DNA of 64,000 bases. Source: Auriscalpium vulgare (taxonomy: Eukaryota > Basidiomycota > Agaricomycetes > Russulales > Auriscalpiaceae). A program made the translations under genes and the position numbers. Shown here piece by piece: positions 32,779 to 50,865 of the stretch (its first letter is position 1; every line of letters begins with the position of its first letter). The stretch is taken from positions 2,108,001 through 2,172,000 of the forward strand of contig JAHBBC010000001.1 in assembly GCA_019915015.1 (NCBI GenBank). Reading direction: 5' to 3'. The notes under the pieces were generated by a model, which ran no database searches, was not told the DNA's origin, and saw only the letters and a program-made list of their open reading frames with translations.

Positions 32779-33451
32779 ATATTATTGCTATTTACTTGTC
32801 CGCATTTCGTGGCTCCGGGCATAGGCAGGGATTGGGACCACGCACACTGTTGTACATACTTGTACTTGCGCTCTCTTGCAAAATAGATACGCTCTTCTAA
32901 GTTCGTTGTAACTTAAGTACATGCGTGAGATTTTTGGCTCGTGAGAAGAACATGAGAATCGCGTCGACTGCCGTCTGGACTCTGTCGCCGTCGACATCCT
33001 GGTAACCGCGACCTCATCATCCACCAACGCGCCCTCCGTTCCCAGGTTCTGTCACCTCAAAGAATGGCGTGAAGACGACGGAAGCTGGCATTCGCCTGAC
33101 TTGACAGCATCCCTATTGTTCCACATGGCCCCAGCTCAGGCTGCCTCTGTTCATCGCAGCCCCGCTTGGCAAAGCAAAGCATCCCGCAGACGATGACTCG
33201 ATTTTCGTGTCTTTGTGTGTGCGGACACACTGTGTCTGTGGCGAGCGCTCTTATTATAAGTGAGCCCTGCGCGCTTGTTCCTGCCTTCTCTCTTCTCCTC
33301 GAACCATCATAATCTGGTGAGCCACTCATGTTATCAGTCCAAGAGGACAGACAGCATCTGACGCGTACAACAGGCGCTGGCCGTCACGGCCGTCGGACAG
33401 ACACATCCCTACGCCCCTCCACTATACTCCGTCGCCCACGCCCCGTCGACG
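32779..33451. other. Intergenic, no gene seen
   Basis: These 673 bp lie between the subtilase and the next plus-strand gene. A weak TATA-like tattataag lies near 33250. Short frames on the minus strand have no motifs. Confidence 0.4.
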
Positions 33452-35104
33452 ATGCAGAACCCGTTCAACTTAGAGCCTGTCGATGACCTCCCAGATGCGC
33501 TTTTTCGTCCTCATACCCCGCACCTCGACAAACAATCTCGTCCTCCTCCTGTGACCCCTAATACCGCCCTCTCTCATGCCACGCGACCACCCTACCCTGT
33601 CGGTCCCGCGAGCCCTATTCAGAACTCGCCAAGCATCGTGCGCTCAGTATACGAATATGTTTTTCCGCAGTCACCCATGCGCGAGCCTCTTGTCCCATCC
33701 CCACCACCCCCCGACCACGACGAGGGCTTGCGCCTCCGCCTACAACAGTGCGAGGCCATTTCCACCACTTTCAGTGAACGCTTCGCACAGCTGGAGGCGC
33801 GCCTCGTCACGATCGACACAGCACAAGCTGCTATCGGCTCCACCGTCGACAAGAAATTAGACGACGCCGAAAAGAAGTACTATCAACGAGTCGTCAGGGC
33901 TGAAGGCCGTGGAGACGAATTACGGCAGAGTGTCGCTTCCAGGCACGAGCAGTTGAAGAAAGATCTCGTGGAGAAGGCTAAGGAGGGTGCGCAGAATGGA
34001 CTGAGCGATTTAACCAAGCGTGTCGAAGGTGTGGAGGCGCGACTAGCACAGACGCAAGCGGAGCTAGCCCGTACGCGGGAAGAGCTGGCTCACACGCAGG
34101 AGAAGTTAGCCGAGACGCAGGAGGAACTGGACCGCGAGAAGGCGAATTCTGCTCAAGTGCACGACGCACACGAGGAACGCGCCACTCTTGCGGACGATGA
34201 GCGACGGCAGACCGATGCCGCGCTGACGACGCTTCAAAAGGAGGTTGTGGACGACCGGGAGCGAGCCGCGAAGGAGAAGAGGATCGCCGCGGTGGCCACG
34301 AAGAAGCGCAAAGCTCTCGAAGAGACAATCGAGGGGCGGCTCACGAGCACCGAAACCACTCTCAAGTTGCTTGCAAACCAGAAGGCGGATACCAGCGTCA
34401 CCGACGAGCTGCAGGCGCGCGTCGACGGGCTCCAGGGCGAGGCTCGGACGTTGAAGAAGCGAGTCGGCAAAGCGGAAGACGAGGCGGCGATGCTGAGCAG
34501 CAAGGTCGCAGACCACCGATACGACGCCGACGAACGTCTACGCAAGGCAGACAAGGCCATCACACAGGCCACCGCCGACTTTGTCGCACGTCTCGCTGAC
34601 GGCCTCTCGAAGCTCGACCGGGACTGGAAAGCCAAGCTCGAGGTGAACCAGGACCTCCGCACGGTTATCGAGCGCGCTGCGATCCTGAAAGCGCGGCTCG
34701 ATCACGTCGAAGCGTACGTGTGCCAGGCGCCGCCCACCGACCCCAGGGAGCGCTACGACTGGGAGTGGGAGTTCCGGCAGATGGGCAAGCGCATGGACGC
34801 GAGGACCGCCGCGCTGGCTGCGGAGTTTGCGCCGCTGCGTTTCCGCTCTGTGCCATGGCCGATGGCGTCTCGACCTACGAGCATCGAGGGCCTGACGCGC
34901 CAGGCGATCAGGAGCTTCTTGGTGGAAGACAAGCGCACTGACAAGGCGTTCAAGGAGAAGCTCAAGGATATGTACATGCGCTGGCATCCGGATAAGTGGA
35001 GTAATATTATGAAGACGGTGTCGCAGGCTGAGTTGGAGGATGTCAAGGCGGGGGTGGACGTGGTCGCCGGTATATTGAACGAGCTGAAGAAGGAGACACG
35101 GTAG
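33452..35104 (+). CDS. Coiled-coil protein with C-terminal HPD-type (J-domain-like) motif, copy A
   Basis: This is a single-exon gene of 550 aa, unusual beside intron-rich neighbours. The first ~85 residues are Pro-rich and disordered. Residues ~95-400 are a near-continuous coiled coil (for example AQTQAELARTREELAHTQEK). The last ~140 residues form a conserved block: VEAYVCQAPPTDPRERYDW, FRSVPWPM, then DMYMRWHPDKWSNI and VVAGILNELKK. The WHPDKW sequence recalls the HPD of J-domains and the RWHPD helix of NFKBIL1-type proteins, but a complete J-domain is not evident. A paralogue follows at 35966. The function is unknown; a structural or chaperone-recruiting role is inference only. Confidence 0.75.
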   Translation: MQNPFNLEPVDDLPDALFRPHTPHLDKQSRPPPVTPNTALSHATRPPYPVGPASPIQNSPSIVRSVYEYVFPQSPMREPLVPSPPPPDHDEGLRLRLQQCEAISTTFSERFAQLEARLVTIDTAQAAIGSTVDKKLDDAEKKYYQRVVRAEGRGDELRQSVASRHEQLKKDLVEKAKEGAQNGLSDLTKRVEGVEARLAQTQAELARTREELAHTQEKLAETQEELDREKANSAQVHDAHEERATLADDERRQTDAALTTLQKEVVDDRERAAKEKRIAAVATKKRKALEETIEGRLTSTETTLKLLANQKADTSVTDELQARVDGLQGEARTLKKRVGKAEDEAAMLSSKVADHRYDADERLRKADKAITQATADFVARLADGLSKLDRDWKAKLEVNQDLRTVIERAAILKARLDHVEAYVCQAPPTDPRERYDWEWEFRQMGKRMDARTAALAAEFAPLRFRSVPWPMASRPTSIEGLTRQAIRSFLVEDKRTDKAFKEKLKDMYMRWHPDKWSNIMKTVSQAELEDVKAGVDVVAGILNELKKETR

Positions 35105-35633: not shown

Positions 35634-37075
35634 ATGCCCTTCGACTCGACACGCAGCCAGCCCAGTCTCCTTCCGCGTACACCCCACAAATCCAGGGCCC
35701 CTCCCACTCCTCCTCTGAGCCCCGAAGTTGACGCCACGCCACACGGCCTGACTCGGCCGAGCTCCGAGCCTGCCCCGGGGAAGTCAGAGACGAAGTCGGC
35801 GCTGATCGGGCTCTTGAAGTCCTGATCGATGAAAGGATACAAGCGCGGTTTGAGATCCTTTTCAGCGAGAGGATAGCGCAGTCCGGGGCCCGTCTTGCAG
35901 AATCCGAGAAGAGCCGGGGTTCCGACAAAGGCAAAGATAGCCGCACCGTAACCACGGCGACGAGTTTGGAGAATAGAGTGGAGGAGGTGGGAAACGATGA
36001 GCGGGAGGTGCTCGTCCAGCGCATTCGGAGTCTAGAGCGCCAGCTGAAGGAGGCGGAGGACGCGCTGACCCAAACGAAGTCTAAGCAGGAGGTCAACACC
36101 CGTGCTGCCGCGAACGTCCAGCGCGGGCGTGGCCAGCTCCGGGACAAATTCGACAAGCTCGTCGTGGACGTTGCACGCGATCGCGAGAGCGCCGTGGAGG
36201 ACCGGAAAATCCTCGCAGAACTCCGAACGAAAGTCGATACGCTGTCAGGAGCGGTCGACGAGGACCTGCGGCCATATTTGACTGAGATGGGATCGAAGGT
36301 GGTCGCCTATGTGGACGAGGAGGTGGTTCCTTGCATGCATTGGTTGAAGACGGCAGCGCGGGAGCTAAATGAGCGGTTGACGAGCGTGGAGAAGAAGGTG
36401 GAGTCACTGGCCGAGGATATCGCAGAGCGCCGACGAGAGTCTGAGGAACGTCTGGACGAGGTCAACGAGGCGCTCAAAGACGCCATCTCGAACTCTGCGA
36501 GGCAGTTGACGCAGGTGAAGCATGAACTGTCGTCGAAGGCCACCGAGTCGGGAGCGGCCACACGCAAGGAGGCAGAGAAGAACCAGACGCGGATTGCGGG
36601 GGTGCTGAGCGAGATGAAGGAGCTTCGGCGTACTGTCGAGGGCAACAACACCGCAATCTTGGAGCGGCGGCTCGACTATATCGAGGCGTACGTGTGCCAA
36701 GTGCCGCCGACCGACCCGTACGAGCGCCACGAGTGGGTGTCGGACTTCCGGCGCATGAAGGAGCGTGCAAGCGGGAAGCCTGACGAGCGGGGGATGCCGT
36801 TCTCGCCCCTGCTGTTCCGCTCCATCCCCTGGCCCGTGGCCGTGTCGCCGTCAAGCGTCGCTGACTTGACGAAGGAGGCGATCAGAAGCTTCGTGCTGAA
36901 CGACATGCGGAAGACGCCAAAGGAGAGGTTCAGAGAATTGATGTTGAAGTGGCATCCAGACAAGTGGGAGAATATCAAGTTGACCATTGCGGAGGCAGAC
37001 AAGAAGGACGTGATGGAGGGAGTGAATGTCGTCGCTGCGGTGGTGACGGAGATGAAGTATTTGACGAAGATTTGA
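35634..37075 (+). CDS. Coiled-coil protein with HPD-type motif, copy B, N-terminus in a different frame
   Basis: The main frame opens at 35732, has its first ATG at 35966 and runs to 37075 (369 aa from that ATG). A plausible N-terminus starts at 35634 (MPFDSTRSQPSLLPRTPHKS) in another frame and stops at 35825. Both frames are open between 35732 and 35822, and no convincing intron joins them. A one-base frameshift, a sequencing error or an atypical small intron would reconcile them. The body is coiled coil. The C-terminus matches copy A: EAYVCQVPPTDPYERHEW, FRSIPWPVA, ELMLKWHPDKWENI. The gene is tandem to copy A and in the same orientation, so it arose by local duplication. Function is unknown. 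Confidence 0.6.
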
Positions 37076-38735: not shown

Positions 38736-38743
38736 TGAGAGAC
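38736..38743 (+). other. 8-bp target site duplication, left copy
   Basis: GAGAGACG stands directly outside the left terminal repeat. The same eight bases stand directly outside the right terminal repeat at 50858-50865. This marks a single insertion event. Confidence 0.9.
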
Positions 38744-38862
38744 GCACCTGTGAGGCCCGGCTATCATTACTAAGTAGAAGCGGTAGCTCTTCCGGCTACC
38801 CGTTGTAATTACAGGGCTTTCGGGGCCCAGCACGCTTCACGCAATAGCTCCCTTTAGCTCGT

Positions 38863-40225
38863 ACACCGCCAACTCAACCGGGTCTGAGTTAAAGACTCGG
38901 CACAATATACTTGATGCCTTGAGATCAGAGCTGTAGGATATCGAGGGCAGGCCTGTGAGGTCTGAAGATGAGTATCACAGGAGAGCTAGAAAATTCAGAT
39001 ACCTAGCAAAGATCTCCTAGGATATCCCACAGGTGTTTGCGCCAGGTCGTCGAGGCAACGTGCGCGGCTCTCCTTTACAGCACTGATTAATTATTCCCCT
39101 TTATTTCTCCGGGCTTATTTGCCCGCCGCTAGGTGATGCTCAGCAAACTGGCATTGAAATGTGTACTATGTAGTGTAAATTTACAACAGCTACAACAGTA
39201 ATAGCAAAGCAACAATAACATGAACCTAAACACCTCAACAGGGGCGAGGCAGGAGTGAACACGAAAAGGCAGGTGCAGGCAGTCAGTCGTAGCGGTACCC
39301 CATGGCCCATCCCTCCGAACAGGCCAGCCGTGCGTAGATCAGTATCTATCATAGGTTAAGAATTGACCAGACACACGATGAAGGGCAGAGACGGGCACAC
39401 GTGTGGACAAAGCGCCGCGACGTGGGGCAATATCGCAGACAGCGCAGGTGTGAACAGGCAGCGAGCAGGACAGTGCGGCAAGCGGACAGGGCAGCGAGCA
39501 GGACAAAGCAGCAAGCAGGACAGTGCTGGGAGCCTCCTGACAGTGCTGCGAGTGGAGGAGGGCGCTGCGAGTGGAGGGCGCTTAGACCTGAGCCTAAATG
39601 CACAAAGCAAGGACCGCGCGCGGTGGGCAAGATCCCAAGACGGTCGGGGTGTTGATGTCGCGAGGGGAGGGCAATGTGGTCCCGCAGGACTTGGTGGCGG
39701 GGTGATGACCGCCGCAGCAGCGACATTCGAGGCCGGCGCTGCCGCGCGCGCATGACATTGACTCTTCGGATCCAGCCCTCATGTCTGCTTGGATTTGAAA
39801 GACCTTGCAGAAACGCAACGTCGTTGTGGAGGAGGGTGGAGGAGGGTGGAGGAGGGTATGGCGAAAGTGAGTCGTTTGTCGAACGTGAAAATTATTTGAA
39901 CAAGGTCACGCGGTCACGACGGCATTAAGGGCAGGCTTGGTCGACACTCTGATCGAATAATATTGCATCAGCAGGCGTGAAGGCACACGAGGCAGGGACA
40001 GATTTCTCGAGAGATCTCAAGGATATCCAAATTTTTTGAGAGGCCAGGCAAGATATCTGTAGGGTCTCGGCGGGATATCTCACATATCTCACAGAGATAT
40101 CCCACGGATAACTACGGGCTGTTATCTCCAGGGCCTCTCATTGGGATCCCACAGATACTTCGGGAAGGCATCAATCAATTGCTCCGTGCCGGAGCTCTCT
40201 GTGCTATCTGGATGAGTTGGCGGTG
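38863..40225. mobile_element. Non-autonomous 1363-bp DNA element nested in the left terminal repeat
   Basis: The ends are inverted: CACCGCCAACTCA at 38863 and its reverse complement TGAGTTGGCGGTG ending at 40225, with looser similarity for several more bases. TA flanks both ends (38861-38862, 40226-40227), while the matching site in the right terminal repeat has a single TA (50739-50740). A TA duplication suggests the Tc1/mariner group. No transposase is encoded, so it must be mobilised in trans. The subterminal regions carry repeated GATATCCCAC-like motifs, possibly transposase-binding sites. The interior has short GC-rich repeats, including three 10-bp units TGGAGGAGGG at 39827-39856. Confidence 0.85.
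39827..39856 (+). repeat. Three tandem 10-bp units inside the nested element
   Basis: TGGAGGAGGG is repeated three times in a row. Just upstream, 39460-39580 contains diverged repeats of the type gcagcgagcaggaca. There is no coding sense. Confidence 0.8.
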
Positions 40226-40798
40226 TAGGGACTTATGGATATCTGCTCGAGCGTCGGGCAGCGGGAGCCCATCCCGCTCACTGCCGGCGGCACCGCTGTC
40301 CCGCCCCGGCTATCTCCCATCAGCCATCTTATCTCCCCAGCTGGGATATCATCTCCCACGCCAACGCGCCCGTCGTCCCGCCCCTTCCCGCCGTCGCCGC
40401 CGCTCCTCCCCTCGACACCGCCGCCCTCCGCTCCCGCGCCGCCCCCACCCCGCCCCTCCTCGACATGCCCCGTCCCGTCCCGTCTCGATGCAGGCAGTCC
40501 CGCCCCGCCGCCGCCACCCGCCGCCCTGTCCCGCCCGCCGTCGGCGCTCCGCCGCATCGGCGCCGCCGCCGTCAATGACACCGCCACGCACTCTCGCGTC
40601 GCCGTCCTCGCCGCCCGCACCGGACTGTCTCCCGCCGCTGCATCCCGCCGTCCCGCCGTCCAGCTCAACATCATGCCGCTGGGGCGGCTCTCTCTCGCTC
40701 TCACTGCCGACACTACTGTACCTGCATGCCTCGTGTCTCATCAGTCATGATTGTGTTGTACAGTAGATACCCTAATACAAGACGAGTGATTGCCCTAG

Positions 40799-43700
40799 CT
40801 ACGGCTCATGGATAGCAAGCAGCGCCAAGATGGCCGCACCGAACTCCTCTTCTGCATGGCCATCCTCCTCCTCCGCGTCATCCTCCTCCTCCTCGGCCTC
40901 CTCCTCCTCGAGATCATCACGAGCAGACGCCATGGATGCGTCCGAGTCCCTGCGGCCCCGAGAAGGGCCTGCGAGTGCACGCGAGATGGGGAGCAGCGCG
41001 TCCGGCGTCGCTACGTTCGGCAAGTCCGGCGCCGAGACGTTCGGCGCGTCCGGCGTCATCATGTTCGGCGCGTCCGGCGTGCGCGCGACAGCGTCGTTGA
41101 GATGGGACGGGGGCGAGGGTGTGTTCCGGCCGACCTGGTGGGCGACTTGGTCAGGCGCGCCATCAACGGAGAGTGCCATGTTGATGGCAGGGGAGGCGGT
41201 CCGAGCGGCAGTGGCGATGCGTTCGTGTGCAGGCGGCATCGCTGTCGCGCGCGCGCCGGTTCCGTTGAGAGCCATACCAGCGGCCCCTCGGGTGCCCAAC
41301 ACACCCTCGATACTGATACCCGGGCTGAGGGATCCTGTGAAGCCGTCAGAGTGAGCCAGCGAAGTGAACCTGCGCATGTGATGTTCATTGAAGCGCCCTC
41401 GCTCCTGCGCGAAGAGGGCGATCTGATGGGCAAGGTGCGGGTCTTCAGAGCGCACATCTATGACGCGTTGCCGAAGGTATGTGCCCTCGTCACGAATGTA
41501 CGTGACGACGCGCGGGATCTCCACGTTGAGGCGGACGACTTCTTCTGCTGCGCGGAGGATGGTGAAGTGTTGGTCCAAGGCGACGCGCCCGATAGGTGTG
41601 GCCCACATCTGCTTGGATACGTCTTGGCGGGCGTCACGAAGCAGGTCGAAGTCGGACAAGAAAGCGTACTCAATTACATCCGCCCACTGGAGGACGCGTC
41701 TCGGGGGCTTCAAGGCGGCGGCGGCGTTGTTGTAGCGATCGAGGGCGGTACGGACAGCTTGCGAGCGCGCTTGCAGCGCCTTTGCAATATGCTTGCGGAG
41801 CTTGTAACCTACACGAGAATATCAGTGTGAATTCATACGTAGCCAAGATGCAACGTACCGGTCTGAGACATGTTCATCTTCGACAACTCGAAGATGCGTG
41901 CGACGACGAGCGCCTCGAGCGCGTCCACAGCCTTACGGTATGCCCGCAACGCCACATTTTCCTGTGCGCGGAGCCACAGCCTACCCTTCGGCAGCCAGCG
42001 CTCCTTGGTCCCCATGCGGAGCTCGAGCTCGTTGACGATCTCGATCGTCTTCATGTTCCTAGCTATGGCGTGGCGACGTGCCGTCTCTGTCTTCAATGAG
42101 CTGCCGGAAGTGCCGATTGTCTGTGGCGTGAGTGTTGCCCAGGCTGCTCGGGCCTCGACGAGTTTTGCCCTGTGTGTGATCAGGCAGGCGCAGGGAAATA
42201 TGACTGCCGTTACTCACTCGCTGTCATGCATCTGCACGAGGCTCTGGTAATACTCCATTTCTAGAGTGTCTTCTGCTGGCTCGGACTTGAGGCCTTCGAG
42301 ATACGCGCGCTCCTGCGAGAGCCAGATGGGGAAGACGCCACGGTCGGCAATTCCCAGCTGCTTCATGGTGTCTGCAAGGATGCCGGGTGCCGTTGCGAGG
42401 ATGGACAGGGCTTGCTTGTAGTTGTTGCACAAGAAGTCACCTACAGCCGGTTAGCGATGGTTCGGGGCGCAGATTGTGCGCGGCGCGGTGCTTACTTAGA
42501 TTAGCATACACTTCGAAGTTGTCTGCATGCTCGTAGTGTGTGGCGATGTCTTGTTGCCGGTGGAATGCGGACGCATACCGAGTCGTGGGGGCGAGCGGGT
42601 TTGATCGCGAGAACGCGCGTTCACAGCCCTCTAGATCCTCAAGTCCCAAGTTAAGCTTGTACTTGGCGAGGCTCTTGAGCTGACACTTCCGGTTGTGCGC
42701 GTAGCCGTGGAAAGCGCCAACTAGCGATTGATATGAGAGCGAGCGGGCGAGCGGGCCAAGCGGGCTGTTGTTGATGCTGGTGCCAAACTTGCAGCCGATG
42801 TCGTAGCCGCCACCAAGTCCGGCGCCGAACGTCTTGAGAAGCTTCTCGACGGTGGCAAAGCCATATTTTAACCTAGGCATTATGTCAGTACAGGCGCGGG
42901 TTTGATAAGATTAAACTCACAACTCGCCACTTTGAACCATGTCGAGGATGAGGAGGGCGAAGCCGTGCCGACAGAGGGAGAGAAAGATGCCCGTCTCATC
43001 GAAGATGCCCCACATCTTCTTTGTGATGTCGGAGGCCATGTTGCGCCATCGTTCCTCGCATGGATTGGCGTCGTCGTCGCCGGCCGGGTCGTTGGCCGGC
43101 TCGCCGGCCGCATCGCCGGTTGTTGCTGCTGCAGTCCCCTCCGCAGGTTGAAGATCCTCGAAGGCAAGGTCGGCCCATCGGTCAACGACGCCGCGCGCCA
43201 AATAGTAGTCGTTGTCGTGCTGGCGGGTATCGAGGCGCTCAATGACCCGCCCCACAATGGGCGCCGAGTCTGTCGATGACTCGGGAGGTGCGCCGCGTCG
43301 CAGGATCCGCTTCAAAGAGTCGTTGCCGTCCATAGTAAAGAGCATGCTGAAGGGGAGGTTCTCTTCCCCTTCAAGCTTATACGTACACGCCGGACAAGCG
43401 TGACGCAGTCGCCAGTCGGGCGCGTCTCGCTCGAGGGCACGCTGAACGCGTCGGGCCACGCGGGAGCGGATGTCTTGATACAAATCGAACGCGATGGAGA
43501 ATTGGCGAGCCAAATAGCGACGAAACGGTACCTGTATGCAAGTATCAGCGCAGCCACGGAGAATGATACTGATGGCACTTACTCCTTGCAGATCTGACAG
43601 TGTCTTCACGAAAGCTTGTATTGACAGATGGGCGCAGCGCAGATGCGCGACACGAAAGAGTTCCAGGGCTTGAAAGGCGATAGCCACGGTGGGCTTGAGC

Positions 43701-44517
43701 GGAGCGCAGGGAGCGAGACCCTGCCGGACAAGGGCGCTGGCGACATAGCTGTCCGTTGACAGCAGGCTTGCATTAACATAATGTGACTCTGCTGCACAAT
43801 GAGTAGCCGCTTTGTGCAGGATTACGGAACCACGTACCGTACACATCAACTACACGGATGTGATACGTGTTTGGCACGAGCGGCGGGGCTTCGGGCACGG
43901 CGGCGGGCGTGTCAATGCCATCGGACTCTTGAGGCTCAACGTCGCGGGCAGTCCAAGCCAGATAGGCATCGACGATAGGTGCCATTTGTGCGGTGAACAG
44001 TTCGTTGAGGCGCTCTGTGCGGCCGGTCCGAGTACGATAATCCGTATGCCGACGCCGCCTCGTGTGACGAGTCAGCTCGTCCACCTCTGGGCAAGGAAAG
44101 CTGTACTCACTTGGGTGCTGGATACACATCCGCCTGCATTTCTTCCACAAGGTCCTCAAACTCGTTACCCGCATGGCTGATGTCCAACGGCTGTGCACCT
44201 GTCATAATGTCTTCCCACCCGTCTTCATCAGCGTCAATGCGGTGGTCGAGCGTGTCTGTCGCCTCCTGGTATATCCTCTTCTCAGCAGTGGTGAGGCCTA
44301 TAGTACAAAGTAAGAAAGTCAGTTGAGAGACACAAACTAGAGGTTACGCACGGGTTTGGCGTTGACGCTCAGCGGCGCGACCGACCTCCGTCGCCTTCCG
44401 CATTTCCTTTGAATTCAAGACCTCCGACCACTGCGTCCGTACGCCTGTGATGACCGCGGTCTTCGTGCCAGAGCTGCGAACGCGGCCGGAGCCAGATTTA
44501 ACGATCTGCCGCACCAT
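40799..44517 (-). CDS. KDZ transposase (Kyakuja-Dileera-Zisupton superfamily)
   Basis: Nine exons (44517-44352, 44297-44111, 44058-43838, 43791-43583, 43531-42921, 42872-42496, 42440-42218, 42169-41859, 41808-40799) give 1104 aa with no frame break. Family blocks in order: SGTKTAVITGVR; a basic RRRHTDYRTRTGR stretch; SIQAFVKTLSDLQGVPFRRY; a zinc-type CPACTYKLEGE; MWGIFDETGIFLSLCRHGF (near residue 445); GGGYDIGCKFGTS; GAFHGYAHNRKCQLK; LEGCERAFSRSN; VLQWADVIEYAFLSDFDLLR; IPRVVTYIRDE. The Asp of DETG, the Asp of YDIGC and the Glu of GCERAFS are candidate acidic catalytic residues. The tail is acidic and Pro/Ala-rich. One intron (44110-44059) uses a cacgag acceptor 52 nt away; the nearer cag gives the wrong frame. 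The stop lies 268 bp inside the left terminal repeat. Confidence 0.9.
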
Positions 44518-44576
44518 GGCGCGCGAACCAGGCGCGAACAAGGGCGAGCGACCAACTACATTTGAGTCGTTGATGC

Positions 44577-44992
44577 GATCTCGGCACTATCCGGCCAGGA
44601 TCCCCGGGCTCCCACGCTATGTCTCTTAGCATTCAACGAGTGCTCATCGTGCGCGCTCGCGCCCTCGCTGTCTCGACGACGCGCTCGCGTCCCGCAGCAA
44701 CCGCAACTTACGACCGCCAGACTTTGCACAGGGCCTGGCATGCGACGGCCATGGTGCACGGCAGGTGCGCTTTACGCGCGCCGCCTTCTGCTGCTTTCAC
44801 CCGAGCGCCGCCAATGCTGACAATGGTGAGCTCTGTTCCGTGTCCTGTGAGCCACTTACTGCCTTGCTTTTTTGTATACAGCATCATAGGAGATACATAA
44901 AGCTTCCTGCGTGCACGCTTTTCAGCCGCCGCACGCCACACGAGTGCGCCGAACGTCCCGACGCCGACGCCGACGAGCCCGCCGCGCCCCCA
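44577..44992 (+). repeat. Left arm of an internal imperfect inverted repeat (~415 bp)
   Basis: This arm pairs with 45863-46290 in reverse complement. Bases 44643-44830 and 44940-44992 are nearly identical between the arms, while 44835-44940 has diverged, a pattern like exon-intron-exon. Read on the minus strand it contains a Gly-rich hydrophobic stretch, WGRGGLVGVGVGTFGALVWR, then RRKLYVSPMMLY. It may therefore hold a small membrane-protein gene or fragment. I do not recognise the family. Confidence 0.65.
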
Positions 44993-45862
44993 GTACGCAG
45001 CCCAGGGCCACAGTATTTTGCTGCCTCGTTGATATGTACAATCAATAACACTTTATGCATTTACTTTTGGCGTGCGTTCCTCTCGTTCGGTGCGCTGACC
45101 TCGGTGGTAAGGCAAACAACGAGCTCGCGTTCTGGGCTTGTTCTGACACTTAGAAGCGTGATACGTTGTAATTGCCGGCGTACTGTATTGACATACTGAA
45201 TACACGGCTTACATTTATTTCATGCGAACTTGACGGCGCTCACCGTCGCGCATATTTTATCGCCGACGATGCCGACGAACACGCTCTCGCAACGAGAACT
45301 TCGCATAATCTTGTAATTTCACTTGGTATCATCACATAGGACACTGGTGCATCTCGTAAATATTTATCACTGGTTCTGCAGTACTTGCTAAATTATAGGA
45401 TGTACCTTGTTACTCGTACAAGGACATGGCTTGCTCTGAAGGCATCCGGTGTACTATTGTGAATCTCAAGGGCAATATATGTCTTAAATTTTGTAGAAAT
45501 CAACGACTATGATGCAATGGCCTATCTACTCTTGGCAGCAATGAGGATCGCGACTTTAAGAACTCGGCAGCGAGCTCATCGGCGTCGGCGGCGTCGGCGT
45601 CGGAAGCGGCGGCGAACTTGATCGCAACAAAAGAAACGGAATCGGGCCCTTGTATACAGTATACACATACATAAAGTATTCGATCTGAAGGTAGCTTAGT
45701 TCTGACGAAAGGACTGCTGGTGGTAGGAGAGCACCAAGTTGCCGGAGTTGGTGACTTCGGCGGGAAACAACCAAGGAGGGCGCCCAAAAAGCTTTTGAGT
45801 AGACAAGCATAGATCTTGCATATGTAGAGCTGTGCCAAAGCTGGATGTCGTGCGTTGCGTTG
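44993..45862. other. Spacer between the internal inverted repeat arms
   Basis: About 870 bp of AT-richer sequence show no convincing coding potential. Frames that enter it from either arm drift into low-quality sequence and stop. Confidence 0.35.
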
Positions 45863-46290
45863 TGGGGGCGCGGCGGGCTCGTCGGAGTCGGCGTCGGGAG
45901 GGTCGGCACACTCATGCGGCAGGCAGCAATTCGAAAGTAAGCACACAGGAGGCTTAATGTACATCATATGATGTCGTGTACAAAGATGCAAGGCTGTAAG
46001 TGGCCCACAGGATGCGGAGCAGAGCTCACCATTGTCAGCATTGGCGGCGCCCGGGTGAAAGCAGCAGAAGGCGGCGCGCGTAAAGCGCACCTGCCGTGCA
46101 CCATGGCCGTCGCATGCCAGGCCCTGTGCAAAGTCTGGCGGTCGTAAGTTGCGGTTGCTGCGGGACGCGAGCGCGTCGTCGAGACAGCGAGGGCGCAAGC
46201 GCGCACGATGAGGAAGGGGTTGACTCAGGGTTGACTGCTAAGGGACGTATCGTGGGAGCCAGGTGTTCCTGGCCGCATAATGCCGAGATT
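45863..46290 (-). repeat. Right arm of the internal imperfect inverted repeat
   Basis: This is the reverse-complement partner of 44577-44992. Read on the plus strand it starts WGRGGLVGVGVGRVGTLM, matching the other arm, but its frame closes sooner after a gtaagc donor. The equivalent of the other arm's atacag acceptor is altered here. One or both copies may be inactive. Confidence 0.65.
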
Positions 46291-46415
46291 ACTTTCCGCA
46301 GGCCTGCCGGACAAGTCGTCGTCTCATGCATATGGCATTGCACAACTAGCTACTCATACATGGGGGACAAGAAATGATAACTACATGCACACATTGGTGC
46401 GCTCAACCCGCCTGC

Positions 46416-47427
46416 TCAAAGCCCCGACTGCGACCGATGCACTTGCCCCGCTACATACTCCCTCGTGAAGATGCGGTCGGCTTCGGCGAGGCTGCGAGCA
46501 CGCTCGACTCGAGGACCGCGGACGTTGCGGCCGAGAGCGTTGGTAGCTTTCCCACTGCAGGGAAGACATGAGAAATGCAGCGACGGTCACGCAGAGACAT
46601 CACTTACCGACCCGCATACACACCAGGGAGGCGGCCGCGCACGACTACCCAGAACGAATCCTCCTCGTGCTGAGCAGGGTATGCGCCATGTGCGCCAACA
46701 GCGCCGGTAGCGAGCAGATGGGCATACCGATCGTTCGCTTCTTCGACGCTTGCGTAGCCCTTGAAGCGAGCGCCGCTGAAGCCACTCGTGTACCTGGACA
46801 CCTCAAGCCTAAACGCGCGTGAGCACTAGGAATAAGCACTACGAATATGTCCTTACCAGTCTAAGAAAACGCCGACCTCCCGGCCATGCGCGATGACGAA
46901 TGCGACCTTCAAACCTCGCGAACTCACTGTCCACTCCTGCACGGAGACAGGTGTCGGGTCCCGCATCTCCCACTGCTCTGTGGCGAAAGCGAAGGGGTCG
47001 GGACCGGCGGGATAGCGAGCGGTGGAGGATCCTGTTGTCGCGCGGCTTGGCGTCGATGGAGCGCGGCTGGGCGTCGATGGAGCGCGGCTGGCCGTTGATG
47101 GAGCGGATGCGGCCACCCGCGTTACGCTCGATGTATACGGCGAAGCGACGGAGGATGGCGTCGATGGCGCCGCACGCGAACGAGTCGGCTGGGTAGACCG
47201 GGGGAGAGCAGATGGGACAGAAGGCGGAGTGCTTTGTACGGACGTCTCGGTCCATTCGTCGTCGTCTTCATCCTCGTCGGATGCAGGATCCGTCGCCACT
47301 GATACCTCGGTCATTGCAGACGTTATGTACCCAAGATCGTCGTCCCATTGCTGTGGCTGCCCTGTATGAGATGTCAGTAACAACCGTGGATGTCGTCACA
47401 CTGCTACGCACTTTGTCTGTGAGCCAT
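46416..47427 (-). CDS. Transposon cargo: protein with two RNase H1-N/viroplasmin-like modules
   Basis: Four exons (47427-47412, 47361-46857, 46808-46608, 46554-46416) give 286 aa. After an acidic and Ser/Pro-rich N-terminal half come two modules of the same small fold. The first reads VAFVIAHGREVGVFLDW, then SGFSGARFKGYASVEEAN. The second reads SFWVVVRGRLPGVYAGR and continues to ARSLAEADRIFTREYVAGQV. This fold binds RNA-DNA hybrids or double-stranded RNA in RNase H1; no catalytic domain is present. Three 21-bp tandem units at 47042-47104 encode APSTPSR-like repeats. The gene is intact and lies between the transposase and the second cargo gene. It may help recognise transposon nucleic acid, or it may be a captured host gene like the one at 13601-16148; both are inference. 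Confidence 0.75.
47042..47104 (+). repeat. Three tandem 21-bp units within the viroplasmin-like cargo gene
   Basis: Units beginning gcggctt/gggcgtcgatggagc are repeated at 47042, 47063 and 47084 with few differences. They are in frame and encode repeated Ala-Pro-Ser-Thr-Pro-Ser-Arg. Confidence 0.8.
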
Positions 47428-47607
47428 GGTGTTGACGGTGGTGGTGGCAGGAAGTGGCAAGGCGACGATTGCAATCAGACTCAGAGATCTCAACATGGCG
47501 CCAAACAACCGACCACAATCAACGCGCTCACGTGCACAGTAGTCTGCTCATTGAATCTCAATGCCTGAGTCCGTCGTGTCCGCCTAGCTTTGCCAGTATT
47601 ACTTGCC

Positions 47608-50085
47608 ATGGATCCTCGATCGCGAACGCAAAATTACCAGTCAAACGGCTACAATTTTCCATCCCAACCAGCACGTCTTTCGAATGGGAACCCTCCGCAA
47701 CTTCCTCCTCACGACGACCGAGTTCTGCCGCCTCCACTTTCTCAACATAACTATCCGTCGCTGCAGCCTCAAAATCCCCCTTATCCCTCCTTCAGCCACC
47801 CTCGCTATGTTCAATCCCCAGCTTTGACGTCGTCCTCTCATGTGCCGTCCTCGTTGACATACGCGCGACCTCCTCAGCAATATCCCGCTGCCCTGCAACT
47901 CCCTCCGCCGGCAGAGTCAGCTCGCTACACTCAAAGCCCGTACTCCTACCCAACCGCCAGACACTCCGCGCATGCCTTCCCCGCTGCGCACGTTCTACAG
48001 CCTTCATTCCATCGCACACAGTCGCCTCTCACACAGCCTCCTCTCACGCGTCAACCTCTCCTCCCCACAGCATCGGCGCTCGCATACATGCCTCTGGCTA
48101 CGCCTCCCCAACCCCCTCCATCCCCAAATCAGTTCATCAATATGGACTCGAATTCCTTTTCTACCCCGTCGCCGACAATGTTTCAACCCTCCGCTACCCG
48201 ACCTTCGCAGCCAGCACCCTCACCATCCCCGCGCATCCGCACCCTGCCTCCAGTACCCTCACCATCCCCGCGCATCCGCACCCTGCCTCCAGTACCCCCA
48301 CCATCCCCGCGCGTCCGCACCCTGCCTCCACCGCCTGTTCAGCACGTCCCCTCGCCACCAGCACCGCCCGTGCAACAAACCCGCCAAGCCACTGCCACGG
48401 CGTCCCCGGCCCCGGCTCCGGCCCCGGCTCCGGCCTCAACGCCGGCCTCGCCTGTGCAGCTGGCCATCCCGCTCGCTCAACCTCCGCTCCCAGCACAACG
48501 CCTGCCAGCACCGGATGGGCCCCATCAAAGTGCGCAAGCCGCGGCGTCCCTCTTTGAGGACATCGAGTTGCTCGACACCCACTCAACAGCGTGGGCGAGA
48601 GCAAATCCCGACGCGCCAATACTCGAACCGCGCACCCGCGACATCCCTAGCGACGCCGTCAAGGCCACCAGGGCTCTCGGCGCAGACCAAAGGACCGCCA
48701 AGGACGAAGCCCTACAGCAGGATATTGCGCAATTCCTGCGTGATCGAGAAGACGCCATCGAGGTGATCGCAACGACGCACGCAATTGCTAACAAAAAGGT
48801 CCGCGACCTGGTCAACGCAGTTACACACTTCAAAACACCCCGCGCGCCGAACTTTGGTAATGCCCTAGTGCATCTGAAGACGTTAGAGCTCAATGCCGGT
48901 AAGCCATATTGCCTTGAGAAGGCATGGACTGACGGATCCACCCCAGACCTGCCGGAGGGACGGAAGCTGAAGCTCGCGGACATCAAGGCAGCCGTCGCGA
49001 ACGACCCCGAGCTGCAGAATGTCACGCCCAAGCGCAAGCAGGAAATCATGGACCTTCTCAGCGCCCATCGGGAGGAGCACAAGATCGGCATTCGCGTGTC
49101 GCACAAATCGGCTGCGCAGGATGTGATGGCAACGGGAGCACGGTGGACAGCTGAGGTACGTTCCAGCGATTCGCTGTCATCGCTGTGTACTGAGCTTCCC
49201 TGCAGGCAGAGAACCTGTACAGCCGCACAGGAGCCCGCTCATTCACCTTCATCACCCGGAGCGACATCAACGACACAATCCAGCCGTCTTGGATGTGCGG
49301 CGGTGACGCCAGCGGGTTCTTTCTCCAGCAGCTCAAGCAGGACCCTAACGACATAGCGCGGCTCTTCGAGCTGTGGTCTGTTTCCATCGCGCATGGTGAG
49401 TACATGCATTGCATTTGTATATCCGCGCTAACGACCTGTAGATCATCGCGGCGGGGACTCCCTTGCATCTATGCGGAAAGAAGCGTCAGACTCGCTCATC
49501 AGTGGCCTCCGTAAGTGTATCATCTGACTTACATGCAGCCATCTAACGGGCGCTGTAGGTTATGCGGCACAGACCTCGAAGATAGCCATGAACTACGACG
49601 ACTACGACAATGTCATCGTGGCAGCGCGCCGTGTGAAGCTTGTTGGATGGCCCCCCGACATCCCTTTCTGCAAACCTGGTGCCTTGAGCCGAGTCGACGA
49701 GCTGCGGACCCTTCGCGACGCCCTGCAGACAGGCTCCTGCAAGTGGATCCGCCTCACAAACAGGCAGGTTACCGAGCACCTCAAGAGCCTGCAGGCCAGC
49801 GGCGCGGTGCCGGAGAAGCGGCCCCGCAAGGTGCGCAGTGACAAAGGGACGACAAAGGCCCGAAAGCGCACGGCCGATGACGTCGCAGAGGGTAGCGATC
49901 GCGAGGCGGCGTCCTCATCGCGGCCATCCAAGAAAGCCAGGGTCGCGCGGGTAGATCGGGCAGTTGCAAAGGGGAAGGGGAAAGAGAAGGAGAAGGCCCG
50001 TGCACCCAAGAGTGCAGAGTGGGTAGACGATGAGGAGGAGGAGGAGGACGACGACGACGACGACGACGACTACGATAACATGTAG
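47608..50085 (+). CDS. Transposon cargo: uncharacterised basidiomycete protein with Pro-rich N-terminus and acidic tail
   Basis: Four exons (47608-49155, 49206-49395, 49442-49510, 49559-50085) give 777 aa. The first ~320 residues are Pro/Ser/Gln-rich and include three 13-residue repeats (PSPSPRIRTLPPV). The folded part starts near residue 335 with an IELLDTHSTAWARANPDAPI-like block. Next come LKLADIKAAVANDPELQNVT and RVSHKSAAQDVMATGARWTA, then the conserved MNYDDYDNVIVAARRVKLVG followed by WPPDIPF and LRTLRDALQTGSCKW. The C-terminus has basic, nuclear-signal-like clusters (KARKRTADD, RPSKKARVARV) and ends in a run of Glu and Asp. I have seen this domain combination as a recurrent hypothetical protein of mushrooms but know no function. 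A nuclear, chromatin- or DNA-related role in transposition is only inference. The start is the first ATG of the frame. Confidence 0.8.
48216..48332 (+). repeat. Three tandem 39-bp units in the second cargo gene
   Basis: Units start at 48216, 48255 and 48294 and encode three near-identical Pro/Ser/Arg-rich 13-residue repeats. The third unit differs at a few positions. Confidence 0.85.
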
Positions 50086-50435
50086 TCCGTGTTCTCCCTC
50101 GTAGCAAACCCTTTGTAGTACTTTAACATGGTGTATATTGATCACAGTTGGTATATACACAACGGCTTCGACGTAGTAAAAAGTATTATAAACTAACGGG
50201 CAGCGTCGTCTGACGACCACGTGATGCTCCGCCGCCAGCGCCAATCAAAAGATGGAAGTCGAGCTCGCTGGCGCCGACATCGTAGCACACCATCGGGTGG
50301 CGGGGCGGCGGCACAGGGAAACGGTAGCAGGAGACGACAGCGGGCGGCTGCGGCGGGTGACGGACGGCGGTGCGAGGCGGCGGCGGGACGGCGGCGGGAG
50401 CCGACGGGAGATGCCGGCGGGAGGCGCTGCGAGAA
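50086..50435. other. Spacer between cargo gene and right terminal repeat
   Basis: This holds 350 bp of GC-rich sequence with no gene. The long minus-strand Pro/Arg-rich frames here run in from the terminal repeat and are not supported. Confidence 0.45.
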
Positions 50436-50857
50436 GACAGGGCGGCGGGTGGCGGCGGCGGGGCGGGACTGCCTGCATCGAGACGGGACGGGACGGGGCA
50501 TGTCGAGGAGGGGCGGGGTGGGGGCGGCGCGGGAGCGGAGGGCGGCGGTGTCGAGGGGAGGAGCGGCGGCGACGGCGGGAAGGGGCGGGACGACGGGCGC
50601 GTTGGCGTGGGAGATGATATCCCAGCTGGGGAGATAAGATGGCTGATGGGAGATAGCCGGGGCGGGACAGCGGTGCCGCCGGCAGTGAGCGGGATGGGCT
50701 CCCGCTGCCCGACGCTCGAGCAGATATCCATAAGTCCCTACGAGCTAAAGGGAGCTATTGCGTGAAGCGTGCTGGGCCCCGAAAGCCCTGTAATTACAAC
50801 GGGTAGCCGGAAGAGCTACCGCTTCTACTTAGTAATGATAGCCGGGCCTCACAGGTG
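50436..50857 (-). repeat. Right terminal inverted repeat of the KDZ element (422 bp, uninterrupted)
   Basis: This is the reverse complement of the left terminal repeat with the nested element removed. It keeps the unoccupied TA target at 50739-50740, which fixes the borders of the nested insertion on the other side. Confidence 0.9.
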
Positions 50858-50865
50858 GAGAGACG
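50858..50865 (+). other. 8-bp target site duplication, right copy
   Basis: GAGAGACG, identical to 38736-38743. Confidence 0.9.

Follow-up and report, generated by a model that had tools for sequence, protein, structure and literature searches.

A KDZ transposon with 422-bp terminal inverted repeats and an 8-bp target-site duplication in Auriscalpium vulgare, member of a probably recently active family

A 12-kb block within the 64,000-bp stretch of Auriscalpium vulgare DNA analysed here (the window) raises the question of whether it is a fully delimited mobile element, to which kind of element it belongs, and whether its family has moved recently. The original prediction had described the block as a complete, apparently young KDZ transposon with identical 422-bp inverted repeats and an 8-bp target duplication. 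We placed the element at window positions 38745-50857 (C1:2146745-2158857), and its ends are composed of the following features:

38737..38744: target-site duplication, left copy, 8 bp, GAGAGACG
38745..38863, forward strand: left terminal inverted repeat (TIR), outer 119 bp, starting with CACCTGTGAGGCCCGG; 119/119 complementary to 50739-50857
38864..40225: nested element of 1,362 bp in the left TIR, with ends CACCGCCAACTCA..TGAGTTGGCGGTG and TA on both sides (38862-38863 and 40226-40227)
40228..40530, forward strand: left TIR, inner 303 bp
50436..50857, reverse strand: right TIR, 422 bp, uninterrupted
50858..50865: target-site duplication, right copy, GAGAGACG

The two ends were compared base by base, as the original prediction had advised. 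The inverted arms 38745-38863/50739-50857 (119 nt) and 40225-40530/50436-50741 (306 nt) were each 100% complementary. If the 1,362-bp insert is set aside and its TA is included a single time, the left TIR (38745-38863 plus 40228-40530) is the reverse complement of 50436-50857 at 422/422 positions, and the identity ends exactly at 422 bp, with no match one base further inward. The identical 422-bp repeats were thus borne out, as was the 8-bp duplication, found directly outside both ends; the left coordinates given for them, 38744-38862 and 38736-38743, were one base too low and are corrected here to 38745-38863 and 38737-38744.

The nested element starts with CACCGCCAACTCA and terminates in the inverse of the same sequence. 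Its empty site, the uninterrupted GCTCGTAGGGACTT, is present both in the right TIR of the window element and in the left TIR of a second long copy located on C18, and its relatives are dispersed in the genome, the best of them at C8:1279058 (97% identical over 1,309 positions). We suggest that this TA-flanked 1.36-kb element entered the left TIR after the KDZ insertion. Calling the unit complete thus requires a proviso, as the left TIR is split by the nested 1.36-kb element. Since the left TIR is interrupted, the present mobility of the window copy is uncertain.

The interior of the element contains three predicted genes and several repeats:

40622..41701: 1,080 bp missing from the C18 copy, the transposase of which lacks approximately the last 300 of 1,104 residues
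40799..44517, reverse strand: g1, KDZ transposase, 1,104 aa (PF18758, 237 bits), nine predicted exons (44517-44352, 44297-44111, 44058-43838, 43791-43583, 43531-42921, 42872-42496, 42440-42218, 42169-41859, 41808-40799)
44578..44999: internal inverted repeat, left arm, upstream of g1, 86% identical to the right arm
45856..46289: internal inverted repeat, right arm
46416..47314, reverse strand: g3, RNase H1 N-terminal (Cauli_VI) domain (PF01693, E = 1.2e-13), 265 aa, three predicted exons (47314-46857, 46808-46608, 46554-46416)
47608..50085, forward strand: g2, conserved protein, 777 aa, four predicted exons (47608-49155, 49206-49395, 49442-49510, 49559-50085)
48211..48330, forward strand: 39-bp tandem repeat within g2, site of a 23.4-kb element in the C18 copy

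All three genes could be modelled free of stops. The eight introns of g1 measure approximately 46-55 bp, and the claim of a nine-exon transposase without a frame break held in the predicted model. The splice sites of g1, g2 and g3 were predicted from sequence alone, with several alternative in-frame choices for introns 2 and 3 of g1. The KDZ transposase domain is present: g1 covers the whole 217-position Pfam KDZ profile, with 237 bits versus a cut-off of 26.6. KDZ transposases often contain a CxC cysteine-cluster domain; in the Pfam profile search, CxC2 scored below its cut-off of 27 (12 bits, E = 0.24), and no match to CxC1 was obtained. Of the 7,998 candidates scored in the g1 protein search, 764 matched at E ≤ 0.001; the 120 best of them are basidiomycete as far as names show, and the two best matches are A. 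vulgare proteins (89% and 92% identity). Across 20 aligned proteins, the acidic residues D489 and E549 were conserved in 20/20, D329 in 19/20, and E546 in 18/20. We take D329, D489 and either E546 or E549 to be the candidate catalytic triad. A one-sequence search showed that the tail of the A. vulgare protein P0001 beyond the transposase resembles the translated window TIR (58/83 identical, E = 2e-37). For P0005, a relative of the transposase, the AlphaFold model (19 sequences, pTM 0.56) gave no PDB match at E ≤ 0.001 and resembled retroviral integrase cores only weakly (1asu, E 0.92, probability 0.57), so that an RNase H-like fold of the transposase was not confirmed by this model search.

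When the TIR was searched against the host genome (51.6 Mb, 96 contigs), 12 matches were obtained: three were the window's own, two were the ends of the unit on C18, and seven were shorter (79-83%). The unit at C18:905153-938192 (33,040 bp) has the same ends and its own 8-bp duplication, GTTCGTGG. The original prediction had proposed looking for further copies and had named homology running on past the borders as evidence against the element; in the same genome, the homology of the C18 unit stops exactly at the borders, and the 2-kb flanks of the window element and those of C18 are unrelated, with no blastn match at E ≤ 1e-3. To the left of the window element, two neighbouring long open frames (33362-35104 and 35732-37075) contain similar coiled-coil-like sequence and a similar C-terminal sequence with 'WHPDKW', and judging from this similarity they are probably a tandem gene pair.

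The search for further copies also recovered five shorter relatives with CACCT..AGGTG ends, on C5, C26, C29, C17 and C2, each with an 8/8 duplication. Three of them are 2.1-kb units whose outer ends are the same but for one mismatch in 19 (C5:80385-82471, C26:175942-178035, C29:54073-56180). The remaining two are long-TIR units of approximately 2 kb (C17:865932-867947 and C2:3124223-3126240), which have the ends CACCTCACG..TGAGGTG and the duplications CCTAGCCA and ATCACGCT, respectively, and are apparently non-autonomous. The right end belonging to a CACCT-type left end at C18:975225 was not recovered. With up to three mismatches, the pattern of the termini was found at 14 places versus 10 for the reversed control, and the analysis was therefore restricted to the 11 places having at most one mismatch. 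The units on C26 and C29 have common flanks and, on this similarity, are probably one insertion that was duplicated; they were counted as one. As this pair looks like one duplicated locus, duplication does occur in the genome, and the two long copies might likewise have spread by segmental duplication or recombination instead of transposition. The different 8-bp duplications and unrelated flanks of C1 and C18 make such an origin extremely improbable.

A perfect 422-bp inverted repeat, together with a second copy bearing its own 8-bp duplication, is far beyond chance. The unit is delimited in the manner of a mobile element, the target-site duplication being 8/8 on both long copies. We consider 38745-50857 to be a KDZ-superfamily DNA transposon, most likely moving by cut and paste with an 8-bp staggered insertion, and give this reading a probability of approximately 0.93. 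We infer cut and paste and TIR binding, as well as any role of g2 or g3, the chemistry being argued by analogy: the putative DDE-type transposase encoded by g1 would attach to the long TIRs and cut the unit out, and its reinsertion at a target cleaved with an 8-bp stagger would generate the 8-bp duplication.

The original prediction had further taken the identity of the ends as a sign of recent movement, and this argument fails. Unlike LTRs, the two TIRs of a cut-and-paste element travel together and are not copied anew from a single template; because of this, TIR identity does not date the insertion. The age of the window copy is better approached through the C18 copy. When later inserts are disregarded, 41 of 9,663 aligned bases differ between the two copies (0.42% substitution divergence), and the aligned bases reach beyond the TIRs and include the genes. 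The differences comprise 34 transitions, 24 of which fall in a CpG in either copy, and 7 transversions. At 28 of the 41 positions, the window has C or G and C18 has T or A. Deamination of a methylated or RIP-exposed copy would give such a pattern. The C18 TIRs differ mutually at 3/422 positions, and from the right TIR of the window at 1 and 2 positions. The C18 copy is without the nested 1,362-bp insert, and its g2 is interrupted at the 39-bp tandem repeat by a 23.4-kb element with 658-bp direct terminal repeats. Its transposase has lost the 3' part, and the copy has acquired the 23-kb element. The window copy is thus the only one of the two in which none of the three genes is interrupted. The direct repeats of the 23.4-kb element (C18:912250-935610 approximately) are 99.8% identical, and it also holds a pair of 1,287-bp direct repeats that are 99.9% identical.

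Identical TIRs could also be found in an old insertion that is neither young nor still mobile, if gene conversion had kept them identical, and the interrupted left TIR and at least one later nested insert are in line with such a history. The low divergence from C18 outside the TIRs nevertheless speaks against it, as does the intact state of the duplication and gene models in the window, and the C/G versus T/A bias makes the window copy look the less decayed one. We regard an old insertion as quite unlikely. The divergence between the copies, the intact duplications and the open transposase model suggest recent activity instead, and the family to which the element belongs is a real KDZ family that was probably recently active.

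What g2 and g3 contribute is a separate matter. No Pfam family scored above the cut-off for g2, and its database relatives number four, the best of them from A. vulgare (84%); the AlphaFold model of one relative, P0123 (4 sequences), reached a pTM of 0.22. For g3, sequence matches to solved RNase H1 domains were weak (6vrd, E = 0.00037; 3bsu, E = 0.001), and the single database relative is A. vulgare P0121 (74%). The A. vulgare relatives of g1, g2 and g3 (P0001, P0002, P0121 and P0122) are each assigned to a 411,380-bp contig and, going by this shared figure, probably sit together. Among the papers listed in searches of the open-access literature, none describes a g2- or g3-like gene within KDZ elements in its title or abstract. 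The internal inverted repeat, which lies between g1 and g3 and is common to both long copies, is distantly similar to subterminal parts of the non-autonomous relatives of approximately 2 kb (e.g. C29, 65% over 340 columns); it may be an old insertion of a ~2-kb unit or a shared piece.

The surroundings of KDZ matches throughout the genome bear on the role of these genes. KDZ matches form at least 168 stretches, counted exon by exon. The co-location count used 108 KDZ entries among the matches listed, leaving out other halves of the same loci, together with 31 of 41 g2 entries (additional exons of a locus already counted being omitted), 8/8 for PF01693 and 17/17 for TET. Measured against the KDZ matches listed, 17/31 g2-like loci lie within 10 kb (zones covering 4.0% of the genome) and 7/31 within 5 kb (zones covering 2.1%); outside the window/C18 family, the counts are 16/29 and 7/29. 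As many of the co-located loci are copies of one family, binomial P values overstate their independence. The spacing between g2-like loci and KDZ matches recurs, approximately 4.7 kb being found five times and 7.8-8.0 kb eight times. Other g2-like loci are far from the listed KDZ matches: four on C8 at 1.70-1.72 Mb (more than 120 kb away), C3:2220733 and C20:36617. PF01693 matches lie within 5 kb of KDZ in 5/8 cases in all and in 3/6 outside the window/C18 family, the latter being C22:285768, C24:190553 and C47:79961. TET/JBP (PF12851) matches number 17, and six are within 5 kb of a KDZ match, at a near-constant distance of ~4.3 kb. These six (C8:1578966, C9:154498, C9:492869, C13:416026, C13:539088 and C14:947177) are spaced as in TET-bearing Kyakuja. 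TET/JBP as cargo of the window element was rejected, with 0/17 PF12851 matches inside C1:2146745-2158857 or the C18 copy.

It might be argued that g2 and g3 do not belong to the element machinery but are host genes carried along passively or remnants of other elements. Both are putative proteins without an assigned function, the C18 copy persists despite its interrupted g2, and a protein search of the genome with g3 gave six matches, all in the two long copies, with no relatives outside the window/C18 family. The clustering of g2-like loci near KDZ at repeated spacings and the PF01693 matches beside KDZ outside this family point the other way, as does a distant A. vulgare g1/g2 pair (49% and 36% identity), both members of which are assigned to an 8,714-bp contig. 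Passive carriage thus deserves consideration, and we hold it to be somewhat unlikely. The repeated occurrence of g2 relatives in the vicinity of KDZ transposases makes it most likely that g2 is a partner protein in this branch of KDZ elements, as judged from genomic association. Since g2, PF01693 and TET/JBP are each found near KDZ matches, the KDZ elements of the host genome appear to fall into types that differ in their partner genes. As a tentative proposal, to which we give rather less than an even chance, one KDZ branch would be a two-gene system consisting of the transposase and a conserved g2-family partner that replaces the TET/JBP cargo found in other KDZ elements of this genome, with some families adding g3, a protein with the hybrid-binding domain of RNase H1 and possibly acting on RNA:DNA hybrids or silencing RNA; TIR-bearing KDZ elements with 8-bp duplications would then be a lineage structurally distinct from the TIR-less Kyakuja with 7-bp duplications.

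The view that KDZ elements have been recognised mostly by their protein domains, on which the interest of this locus had been based, is out of date, as delimited and even mobile copies are described in the available parts of two publications (PMC12810828, PMC12730594). In Cryptococcus neoformans, KDZ1 (~11 kb, 241-bp TIRs, 8-bp duplications) inserted into a reporter gene, and KDZ2 and KDZ3 have 139- and 169-bp TIRs with 4-8-bp duplications, the size range of the three being ~9-11 kb (PMC12810828). The window element shares with them a KDZ transposase, long TIRs, a delimited unit and, as in KDZ1, the 8-bp duplication. Its TIRs are longer, and it is known solely as sequence, whereas mobility was seen in Cryptococcus. 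KDZ1-3 are described with a CxC1 domain, unlike g1, which has no CxC1 match and a CxC2 score below the cut-off, and genes of the g2 and g3 type, present in the window element, are without mention in the available part of the description of KDZ1-3 (PMC12810828).

Kyakuja elements of Laccaria and other Agaricomycotina are characterised by 7-bp duplications, by the absence of TIRs and, in the TET+ families, by TET/JBP (Kojima 2025, PMC12730594). The window element is similar to them in its superfamily, its outermost bases (5'-CA..TG-3') and a basidiomycete host, Russulales being included among the hosts, but differs in its 8-bp duplication, its 422-bp TIRs and the lack of a TET/JBP match inside; judged by its ends, it does not fit Kyakuja as defined in the accessible text of that source. 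According to the same text, 8-bp duplications occur in Zisupton and in a Dileera family (PMC12730594). As far as the published description of ends goes, the window element resembles Zisupton in having both an 8-bp duplication and TIRs, and Dileera in the 8-bp duplication. KDZ elements with TIR motifs were characterised in the mushroom genome of Marasmius oreades as well (PMC8290104, as far as available), and for Ectocarpus the part available of PMC12477816 describes giant KDZ elements that contain nested inserts and further genes.

The structure of its ends places the window element among the KDZ elements with TIRs and 8-bp duplications. It is a good additional representative of an established kind of element and not a new kind. 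Outside Cryptococcus, it supplies a KDZ family with fully defined borders, for which a single genome contains the ends and duplications, a copy with all genes, a decayed copy and short non-autonomous relatives. Within that genome, KDZ loci near TET/JBP genes can be told apart from KDZ loci near g2-like genes. The most interesting part is the g2 family, which has no Pfam entry above the cut-off and recurs beside KDZ transposases, and which is a testable partner in KDZ transposition.
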